Assembly (NCBI RefSeq): GCF_964355755.1
Contig: NC_092672.1
Span: 27,648,501 to 27,712,500 of the forward strand
Direction of reading: 5' to 3'
Source of the DNA: Antedon mediterranea
Taxonomy: Eukaryota > Echinodermata > Crinoidea > Comatulida > Antedonidae
DNA length: 64,000 nucleotides
The position numbers and the translations under genes are program-made. Below the pieces are notes generated by a model. That model was not told the origin of the DNA and did not search any database. It saw only the letters and a program-made list of their open reading frames with translations. This document shows positions 4,508-19,824 of this stretch, piece after piece (position 1 is the first letter of the stretch; each line of letters begins with the position of its first letter).

Positions 4508-7500
4508 GTACTTATTTATAATCAATTATCTAAATTATATATAAAAATAAGTTTGACGCCTACACCTCAAATAAACTGTATATTGTAGTAATATAATTAT
4601 TTATATATTTTCATTAATATTAGTTTTCTTATATTTTATTTGTACTTTAAATAATTCCCCCTCTCCCATGCATAATTTCTGGATACGTGCCTGGTTTTGT
4701 TAATAATAAAATCTTAAGAATAAGACCTATTACGTACCTATAATGTTTAAGCACATGTTTAGGCATATACTAATTTTGATACACATGGTTCATTTTGTCT
4801 TCTTTCATTTCTTTTCCTCTTTTTTTTGTTTCTTGATATTGCCCTTGTACGGAAGCCCGTTCGGGCACAAGTTTTAACTATATTTTAAAAGCTGTTATCT
4901 GGCGGCCGCCACTTAATTATCTGGCGGCCGCCACTTAATTATCTGGCGGACATGTACTAATTATTAAGTGGCGGCCTCCAGATAATTAAGTGGCGGCCGC
5001 CAGATAACAGCTTTTAAAATAGTTAACTTGTGGCCCGAACGGGCTTCCGTACCCTTGCATGTATGATACATGCTTTTATTGATAATGTTTAACACATTTT
5101 TAACAGGTAATTTGCAGGCAGCTTGGATTCGTTGACGGCATGATTTCATTTGGGTCCTCGTCGGGTTACACCCGTGCACGGTATGGCCAATCACAGAGTA
5201 CCACGTGCTCTACACATGTGAAATGCTCAGGTTGGGAACCAACGCTTGGTGATTGTAGCGAGCATTACACTTCATCTTATTGTACTCATTCATATGACGT
5301 CAGCGTTAAATGTCATCCTAGAAGACAGCATTTCGGTATTTTTTAAATTACTTTCAGAACAATCCTATTTAAGAAACATTTAATGATGTTATTTTGATGG
5401 AAACTATGTTTTTATCTCTCAGAATGTCACTGCTTGACGACCACTGAATGTTACAGAACAACCGGAAGTTGTCCTGATGGCCAATGTTCTGTGGGATGGA
5501 CCGGAGATTTTTGTCAAATCGGTAAGTGGTGTACACAAACTGTACAATTAAGTTATGAATTGATCAGGGTTTTTTTTTTGGTTTTTTTTTTGGTAGAAAA
5601 GATTAATTGCATTTCAATCAAACAATGACAAGGTCCTAAATCGACACTCTATGTGACAGTGACGCCATTTTTATTTTGTACAGAACTACCAGTATTCACA
5701 AAACCACCTCGGATTGTTTCTAACGACTTAAGACCACTGAATCCAAAAGTAAACTGGGATAAATTTCCTTATGATTATGGGGCTGACGTTGTGGGATGCT
5801 CTGCATACTACATCGATGCATCTCAGATCGGCTACGAGGAACGTGTAATTTGTAACGTTGGAGTATCATCTGCATCTTGTCATATAAACACTCTTCCTGC
5901 TGATAGAAATATTGAAATCGGTGTAGCATGTCGGATAAAAACTGGATCTACGACAACACGAGGACCTCTGTCACCAACGGTGAACTTCACAACTTACACA
6001 GACAGTAAGAATTAGAATAAGTCGTAATCATGAATACGACTATTTTAGCAATCTACGTTTATTGACCTTGCTTGCCTAACATATATTAACATAATAGATT
6101 AGTACCTATGTAGTAGTCAAATTATCCCAGACAAGTAACTGGCGTGGCTCATCCACAGTTAAAGTGTTATGCTGCTAAATACTTCACCAAAATCAAAGCC
6201 ACATCAGCTTATTGGGGAAACTTGCGAAAGGAAGGCATAGCTTATTACGTAATGATATCATTGGTTGTTGAAATAAAAACAATAAATATAACACATTATG
6301 TTCAACAGAAATAAAATAATTCCTATAATTTGTATAAGGATAGTATGCGCATAATTTATATATTAACAATTTGAATTATGTAATATTGTTTACAATTTTA
6401 CATAGCGATGAAAAACTATTGTAAAGTAGGCCTACGGTTTTCTGTACCATTTTAACAGAAAGATTAAGTTTCGACGTTTCGGTTGTTGTACTCAATCTTA
6501 TAGATTAAGTTAGGCCAGTAAAACGTTGAGGCGATTGGCAATTACTAGAAAATATGTTGTCAGGGTGTGTACAAAAAATCTTTGTTGACCTACAGTTAGT
6601 ATTATGCGGATAGAGCAAACAAATTTAAATATTGTTTTGAGCACTGCAACAGTAACCATCTTCGAATTGAATTATTTTTTTAATAGGAAAAGAAATGGAT
6701 TTTGTTGTAATGAATTATAGTCCTCTGATTGAATTGAACAACCCCAATTCAAGTCTCAAGATTGGAGGTTATACAATAGGAGATCATCAAACAAATAACG
6801 TCAATTTTGGTCGTAAATTCAACACTGATACCAGAAACGGTACTAGAGATGAAGAGCTGAACTTAGGCCTAATTGATAATGGTGGTTTGACATTGAATAA
6901 CAACATGTTTCCTTTGCAAAGCACAGTATCCATGATGCGGAAGTTCGATTTTACATCGATACTACTGGAGCTTCCGGCTAACACGACTTCTGAAAATATT
7001 GGCGTGTTCTACACTTGGGCAACAACTGGGGTACTAACTTCTGATATCACAACGTTTAGTATTTCAAAAGAAGGTACAGTAACTATTTCTAATAAAGTCA
7101 ATTTCGCTTTGAATATGTATTTTTGACTAAAGTCTATATTAAAGAAACTGACCGTAGGCTCTAACGATTTTTTTGTGAGAAAGCCACTTTACTAAGTGAA
7201 AAAATTGCTAGTAGGGCCTACAGTATTTATACAGAATGTTGGCAAGATTATTAAAGTTATTTTTAAACCGATTCAATAAAAGTTTGGTTTTATTCTCTCA
7301 ATGAAAGGAAATATATACGTATATTTTCAGAAAAACAAAACTTTCAGAGATTGCTTTTAATACATTTTGATTTACAGCAAAGATTCGATCAAAGAACAAA
7401 ACGATATTAGCAGGTTTTGGAGAAAGACTTGAAGTAGAGGTTGATATAGAAGACAGTGTTGATTTAGATGAACTACTTTGGCACCATAACGGAGGAGATG

Positions 7501-19824: not shown

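Follow-up and report, generated by a model that had tools for sequence, protein, structure and literature searches.

A predicted gene with two Tie-type heads and an SRCR cap in the crinoid Antedon mediterranea

Exon Structure of the Predicted Gene

The stretch analyzed here (the window; 64,000 nucleotides of contig NC_092672.1, positions 27,648,501 to 27,712,500, assembly GCF_964355755.1) comes from the crinoid Antedon mediterranea, and carries a predicted gene in which fourteen exons form two consecutive blocks of Ig1-Ig2-EGF1-EGF2-EGF3-EGF4-FN3. This arrangement had been proposed from the letters of the DNA (the original prediction) at 6687-19824, and was re-derived here with exactly the same start and end. 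Each of the 14 exons is preceded by AG and followed by GT, all of the exon lengths are divisible by 3, the introns are uniformly in phase 1, and the reading frame of the joined exons contains no stop. The exon lengths are 387, 258, 132, 144, 129, 150, and 318 nt in block 1, and 387, 252, 132, 144, 129, 150, and 318 nt in block 2, six of the seven pairs being equal. The two blocks are joined by intron 11/12 (from FN3_1 to Ig1_2, the suffix giving the block), which is 194 bp long and has GT/AG ends and phase 1; a separate promoter and signal-peptide exon would hardly fit into it. The earlier proposal that both blocks lie in one gene is, therefore, supported for the predicted gene by the stop-free frame, the uniform phase, and this short intron. 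An upstream tandem copy of the gene (copy A, see below) is used for comparison in the following list.

6687..7073, + strand: block 1 Ig1 exon (387 nt, phase 1-1; 16 matches elsewhere in the genome plus copy A)
7378..7635, + strand: block 1 Ig2 exon (Pfam Ig_3, E 4e-5, below cut-off; its end aligns to Tie2 Ig2)
10193..10324, + strand: block 1 EGF1 exon (Pfam EGF_2, E 6e-7, over cut-off; aligns to Tie2 EGF1)
10425..10568, + strand: block 1 EGF2 exon (FCLPEPLGCSC, compared with FCLPDPYGCSC in Tie2; 97 genome-wide matches at E<=0.01)
15486..15614, + strand: block 1 EGF3 exon (aligns to Tie2 EGF3)
15756..15905, + strand: block 1 EGF4 exon (without a Tie equivalent in the alignment)
16226..16543, + strand: block 1 FN3 exon (Pfam fn3, E 0.0015, below cut-off)
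16738..17124, + strand: block 2 Ig1 exon (387 nt, phase 1-1; 15 matches elsewhere plus copy A; no Pfam match)
17480..17731, + strand: block 2 Ig2 exon (Pfam V-set, E 3e-5, below cut-off; its end aligns to Tie2 Ig2)
17982..18113, + strand: block 2 EGF1 exon (aligns to Tie2)
18376..18519, + strand: block 2 EGF2 exon (aligns to Tie2)
18837..18965, + strand: block 2 EGF3 exon (aligns to Tie2)
19262..19411, + strand: block 2 EGF4 exon (AG/GT borders, phase 1)
19507..19824, + strand: block 2 FN3 exon (Pfam fn3, E 9e-7, above cut-off)

Of these modules, EGF1_1 and FN3_2 pass the Pfam cut-offs, the two Ig2 exons (Ig) and FN3_1 (fn3) have matches that stay below them, and Ig1 has no credible Pfam match. 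Upstream of block 1, the frame continues through four in-frame exons at 4386-6004, which lay outside the original model and appear, from their frame and borders, to be part of the same gene as both blocks.

4386..4507, + strand: SRCR_a exon, first half of an SRCR domain (AG/GT borders; 72% identity in copy A)
5107..5335, + strand: SRCR_b exon, second half of the SRCR domain (Pfam SRCR, E 7e-10, over cut-off; 83% identity in copy A)
5423..5521, + strand: EGF0 exon (phase 1-1; 72% identity in copy A; its sole Pfam match, EGF_STAB1-2, is weak, E 0.03)
5684..6004, + strand: FN3_0 exon, FN3-sized (phase 1-1; 64-66% identity in copy A)
20287..20294, + strand: putative last exon, Asp-Val-stop (after the acceptor TTTATTTCAG; also present in copy A, with GTA for GTG)

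Even at E values up to 1, Pfam did not match FN3_0 to fn3, and its label is therefore one of position and length only. A further SRCR exon lies at about window position -5780, and the SRCR domains of the gene score 52.1 (this exon) and 39.5 bits against a Pfam cut-off of 26.1. A candidate signal-peptide exon at about -7790 encodes MYFTLHIFVFALLVSWETIS and is followed by GTGAGT; it was chosen by hydropathy, donor site, and homology to copy A, and is a plausible candidate. Both of these exons sit in DNA that is homologous to the corresponding place of copy A.

At the 3′ end, the gene apparently stops just after the second FN3. An acceptor scan revealed an alternative acceptor before 20188 that leads into the same stop as the putative last exon, and an AATAAA/ATTAAA hexamer follows at 20427. 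The 100 kb made up of the window and the 36 kb that precede it were searched by tblastn with the transmembrane, juxtamembrane, and protein tyrosine phosphatase (PTP) exons and the tyrosine-motif tail of relatives, and with the Tie2 kinase. Nothing reached E<0.05, and the top hit, a juxtamembrane piece at E 0.069, falls inside a transposon region. A scan for phase-1 transmembrane exons at 19.8-23.3 kb (3.5 kb downstream) found no convincing candidate, and none of the 150 PTP matches listed, of 153 in the genome, lies near the locus of the gene at C3:27.6 Mb.

Relationship to Tie Receptors

Searches against known structures revealed that both blocks match human Tie2 far better than any non-Tie protein. 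Block 1 aligned to the Tie2 structures with E 6.3e-41 (best non-Tie match, 2e-5) and block 2 with E 3e-36 (best non-Tie match, 1.2e-4), in both cases over the end of Ig2 and EGF1-3. The suggestion that the first five modules follow Tie2 holds, accordingly, for Ig2-EGF1-EGF2-EGF3. For Ig1, a 10-sequence profile gave no PDB match at E<=10. Two AlphaFold models of Ig1 are of low confidence (mean pLDDT 61.5 and 62.0) and only weakly resemble Ig domains; the Foldseek matches listed were almost all Ig domains, with query TM-scores of 0.26-0.51 and none at E<=0.001.

The larger claim, that the blocks represent the ectodomain of a Tie receptor, was not borne out. In each block EGF3 is followed by EGF4 and one FN3, with no Ig3 or FN3 series as in Tie, and no transmembrane or kinase exon was found in the searches described above. 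A canonical Tie kinase gene is located elsewhere, at C6:15.079-15.108 Mb, and contains Ig2, EGF1-3, Ig3, and FN3 exons, a transmembrane exon identified by hydropathy, and a kinase read in eight pieces (37-78% identical to human Tie2). Pfam cut-offs are passed by its Ig3 and by two of the three FN3 exons tested, Ig2 is just below the cut-off, and the remaining FN3 exon has no match. With three of the kinase exons joined, the score was 151 bits for Tie2, compared with 88 for CSF1R, the next-best kinase. The EGF/Ig2 part of this gene groups with human Tie2 at 94-95% bootstrap, with the window blocks outside, and the existence of this separate gene indicates that the window gene belongs to a paralogous family and is not the Tie receptor. 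Two single-exon kinases at C6:20.65 and C6:1.74 Mb, the best matches to the Tie2 kinase, were rejected as Tie genes; by eye, frizzled- and kringle-like exons adjoin them, and they look ROR/MuSK-like.

Comparison of the Tandem Copies

Copy A, an adjacent tandem copy about 30 kb upstream (window -31.3 to -15.3 kb), repeats the 18-exon series from SRCR_a to FN3_2. Between the two copies, the synonymous divergence (dS) from the first SRCR to Ig2_1 (571 aligned codons) is 0.41, with a ratio of nonsynonymous to synonymous divergence (dN/dS) of 0.37; from EGF1_1 onward (783 codons), dS is 0.053 and dN/dS is 0.15. Both ratios are below 1, as expected for constrained coding sequence, and both tandem copies look constrained. 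The copies align without a break from 15.4 to 22.4 kb, introns included, at 95-97%, and upstream of about 10.1 kb their alignment is limited to exons with short flanks. Exon by exon, dS is 0.37-0.65 in five of the six exons that precede Ig2_1 and EGF1_1, 0.135 and 0.175 at these two, and 0-0.08 afterwards. Because divergence drops around Ig2_1-EGF1_1, the 3′ half looks recently homogenized between the copies, although the transition is not sharp: EGF0, which belongs to the 5′ half, has a dS of 0.05. Divergence of the 5′ half by positive selection is unsupported, since dN/dS there is 0.37 and the introns diverge too.

A Family of Tie-Headed Genes

Family members were read by tblastn and candidate-exon reading, with predicted splicing, and the counts, obtained exon by exon, are lower bounds. 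The block 1 EGF2 exon has at least 97 matches in the genome at E<=0.01 (of 102 candidates scored), which form 21 clusters at 60-kb linkage; nine of the 21 have listed PTP exons within 25 kb. The PTP domain (PF00102) gave 153 matches, of which the 150 listed were used for distance counts, and 76 of these 150 follow a Tie-like EGF2 exon on the same strand at a distance of no more than 15 kb. Conversely, a PTP exon lies within 15 kb downstream on the same strand for 29 of the 97 EGF2 exons, upstream for 14, and on the opposite strand for one. The upstream figure is expected from tandem arrays and is still a caution; by the downstream figure, the majority of the EGF2 exons, 68 of 97, are without a listed PTP exon within this distance. 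Arrays that pair Tie-like EGF2 with PTP exons occur at C5:7.66-8.07, C5:12.0-12.1, C5:25.2-25.3, C6:7.2, C6:26.0-26.4, and C6:30.4-30.5 Mb.

Several members were read individually. The predicted gene at C6:30.439-30.460 Mb consists of two Tie blocks, more FN3s, a transmembrane segment, and two PTP domains. Four of the five PTP-region pieces tested are over the Pfam cut-off and the fifth has no match, the motif HCSAGVGRTG spans a splice site, and the joined PTP pieces are nearest to PTPRS/LAR structures. At C6:30.484-30.505 Mb, six SRCR matches precede Ig2, EGF1-3, FN3, a transmembrane candidate, a juxtamembrane piece, and two PTP domains; HCSDGVGRTG again spans a splice site, one tested SRCR and one tested PTP exon pass Pfam, and Ig1, EGF4, and the block FN3 were not matched in the sequence read, which has a 1-kb gap. 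Four SRCR matches (one tested, which passes Pfam), one block, and FN3s make up the gene at C6:30.472-30.480 Mb. A different body is predicted at C3:13.143-13.163 Mb. Two blocks, the second with its final three modules identified by eye, are followed there by FN3, a transmembrane segment, and a tail that contains tyrosine motifs such as IFYLNV and the proline-rich stretch KPPVPKKP. This tail has no Pfam match, and its tyrosine motifs are presumably ITIM-like (immunoreceptor tyrosine-based inhibitory motif). A cluster of doubled-block genes extends over C3:13.143-13.236 Mb, and the one read has this immune-type-looking signaling tail. Single blocks followed by FN3-like exons occur at C5:7.86-7.88 and C8:15.77 Mb, and single-block units with identical tblastn scores recur every ~7.7 kb at C6:26.104-26.124 Mb, with no PTP piece at E<0.5 in the 20 kb read. 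As predicted from these exons, the Tie-type head appears to be borne on different bodies within one large family, comprising one canonical Tie kinase, many phosphatase receptors, some of which are capped by SRCR, and at least one short-tailed receptor. The window gene shares the Ig1-Ig2-EGF1-4-FN3 block with the Tie-headed phosphatases, whereas the transmembrane and PTP parts were not found.

Origin of the Two Blocks

The blocks had been described as a tandem duplication within one gene. That they arose by simple internal duplication in an ancestor of the gene and have since diverged would agree with their common module order and near-equal exon lengths; constrained monophyly of the two was not rejected (approximately unbiased (AU) test, 0.25), and in the Ig2-EGF1-3 tree their placement has supports of only 15-36. 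The similarity ranks are contrary. Thirty-eight exons at other loci are closer to block 1 EGF2 than block 2 EGF2 is (rows 41-42 of 97), and neither Ig1 exon finds its partner at E<=1, yet each finds 15-16 places elsewhere, the nearest being C6:30.476 for block 1 (E 1.1e-6) and C3:13.143 for block 2 (1.2e-5). Maximum likelihood trees of whole blocks also separate the two, with support of 80 in a 9-row and 83 in a 13-row tree. The 9-row tree (LG+G4) represents six of the 21 clusters by a single gene each; it omits both Tie rows, the C6:26 Mb member, and block 1 of copy A, whereas block 2 of copy A entered neither tree. In the 9-row tree, the blocks of the C6:30.44 gene pair with each other at 100% support, and gene conversion between the blocks of one gene could mimic such a recent doubling. 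A single doubling common to the three doubled genes tested was rejected (AU 1.8e-12), and independent doubling forced on all three was marginal (AU 0.034). The tandem duplication is, thus, not established. Plain internal duplication is a possibility that we hold with some reserve, and the similarity ranks and tree placement make the end-to-end joining of two already diverged blocks at least as likely.

Proposed Function and Alternatives

The favored reading, to which we give a probability of roughly 0.6, is that the product of the gene is a secreted binding protein of the Tie-headed family, with two heads and an SRCR cap. The predicted product of ~1,400 amino acids would consist of a signal peptide, two SRCR domains, an EGF, an FN3-sized domain, two Tie-type heads, and a short tail. 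It reads as secreted because a signal-peptide candidate and a terminal stop are present and no transmembrane or catalytic exon was found. The SRCR-capped, Tie-headed genes of the C6:30.4-30.5 Mb cluster, one of which runs through to a transmembrane segment and two PTP domains, provide further support. Such a soluble protein might act as a decoy or recognition factor, in which the heads and the SRCR cap bind ligands or surfaces, and might either keep ligand from the membrane relatives or bridge targets to them. Angiopoietin-like or other fibrinogen-domain ligands could be guessed at by analogy with Tie2. A possible origin of the gene is a membrane relative, SRCR-capped and Tie-headed, whose FN3-transmembrane-cytoplasmic end was lost.

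Several observations weigh against this proposal. The putative last exon encodes only two residues, and its conservation in copy A is weak evidence because the introns there are ~95% identical. The search for transmembrane and PTP parts relied on sequences of relatives and a hydrophobicity scan, and a remote alternative 3′ exon with a transmembrane segment may exist. EGF0, alone among the exons, has dN above dS (0.144 versus 0.052, 32 codons). Outside the tandem pair, SRCR_b has its closest match at C11:3.92 Mb (2.5e-5), practically equalled by C6:30.477 (2.8e-5), FN3_0 has no genome match, and the best EGF2 matches (C6:1.04 and C6:19.6) are in clusters without a listed PTP exon; descent from an SRCR-capped, Tie-headed membrane gene is, therefore, plausible and not more. 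The decoy role is drawn from anatomy, and a matrix or adhesion role fits it equally.

The alternatives differ considerably in how well they account for the locus. The main alternative, a secreted extracellular-matrix or adhesion glycoprotein in which repeated heads give length and multivalency, is possible but rather doubtful: the EGF, FN3, Ig, and SRCR modules and the lack of any catalytic or membrane part found are what such a protein would display, and the receptor-type kinship and SRCR caps lean, from knowledge of the family, toward recognition, with nothing decisive between them. It is very unlikely that the gene encodes a Tie-like membrane receptor, with transmembrane segment and kinase, whose ectodomain block was duplicated. 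The Tie-specific Ig2-EGF1-3 of both blocks would suit such a receptor; however, neither tandem copy, nor the 44 kb downstream, yielded a kinase or transmembrane exon, the genome has its canonical Tie kinase gene elsewhere, and the blocks have four EGFs each and no Ig3. The least credible alternative is a pair of neighboring genes split between FN3_1 and Ig1_2. An ATTAAA hexamer inside intron 11/12 is what speaks for a split there, but this short phase-1 GT/AG intron has no AATAAA, copy A has the same exon order, and two other predicted genes have consecutive blocks.

The secreted, two-headed reading can be placed in a broader and more tentative proposal, which we regard as conceivable rather than likely. 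The Tie-type head may have become detached from the kinase and turned into a general recognition module on phosphatases, a short-tailed receptor, and secreted proteins, together forming an innate recognition system, in which doubled, SRCR-capped secreted proteins may oppose or feed the membrane forms that bear the same head.

Other Features of the Window

A relic of a third tandem copy lies downstream of the gene, and has been broken by mobile elements.

23183..29374, + strand: third tandem copy, relic (a Harbinger-type element truncates its signal-peptide-like start, and another insert interrupts its SRCR exon)
23222..27484: PIF/Harbinger-type element (transposase DDE_Tnp_4 at 26021-27094, - strand; Myb/SANT protein at 23496-23903, + strand)
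about 28338..29258: smaller insert, bounded by terminal sequences similar, by eye, to those of the Harbinger-type element
60494..60766, - strand: leucine-rich-repeat-like stretch (LRR_8, E 0.01, below cut-off)
61249..61494, + strand: HYR-domain exon (Pfam, E 8e-9)

The last two probably belong to neighboring genes. Within the introns of the window gene, several repeats were noted by eye. At 9340-10137, in the intron before EGF1_1, a palindromic unit of roughly 60 bp (ggtgatcattttattctaaatgatcacc) is repeated in tandem. Inverted copies of one repeat occupy 7950-9100 and 14000-15330, in the introns that flank EGF1_1/EGF2_1; copy A has much shorter introns there. An intronic repeat of about 1.5 kb is present at 10840-13900 as two diverged copies in direct orientation, each bearing a tRNA-like stretch (gatcgaatccc or gatcgagtccc).

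Comparison with Known Systems

To our knowledge, textbook receptor tyrosine phosphatases carry Ig/FN3, MAM, CA, or short heads, and not Tie-type heads. Several relatives in this genome carry PTP domains, nearest to PTPRS/LAR, behind Tie-type heads; unlike receptor tyrosine phosphatases, the window gene appears to lack an FN3 array, a transmembrane segment, and a PTP domain. Among the matches listed in a search of titles and abstract beginnings in the open-licence literature, no report of Tie-headed phosphatases or of Tie expansions was found. The combination of SRCR with EGF modules in the window gene is shared with invertebrate SRCR mosaic proteins, and EGF-like domains are described among the SRCR proteins of the sea urchin, where the SRCR family has expanded (PMC10855680). 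The main text of that survey does not contain the whole word "Tie", and its passages on these proteins mention no Tie-type block. The sea urchin gene SpTie1/2 is described as an orthologue of vertebrate Tie2 that encodes a receptor tyrosine kinase and is expressed in coelomocytes and the axial organ (PMC12113024), and a Tie-2-like protein has been reported in starfish coelomocytes (PMC13409769).

The closest known counterparts of the window blocks are Tie1 and Tie2 (human Tie2, PDB 2gy5/4k0v), which are alike in the order and sequence of Ig2-EGF1-EGF2-EGF3. Unlike Tie1 and Tie2, the window gene has two blocks, with four EGFs and one FN3 each and no Ig3, and an SRCR cap; no transmembrane or kinase part was found in it, and the Tie kinase of the genome lies elsewhere. 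Tie receptors are usually treated as one small, vertebrate-centered pair, and in vertebrates Tie2 is opposed by a separate phosphatase, VE-PTP. In A. mediterranea the Tie-type head appears, instead, as a multigene module on phosphatases, a kinase, and apparently secreted proteins, a spread that is relevant to the question of its original ligand. In this animal, enzymes of opposite action may respond to one class of ligand. On the tentative proposal made above, a kinase, phosphatases, and a soluble competitor that share one type of head in one genome would amount to an innate recognition system built from the Tie ectodomain.

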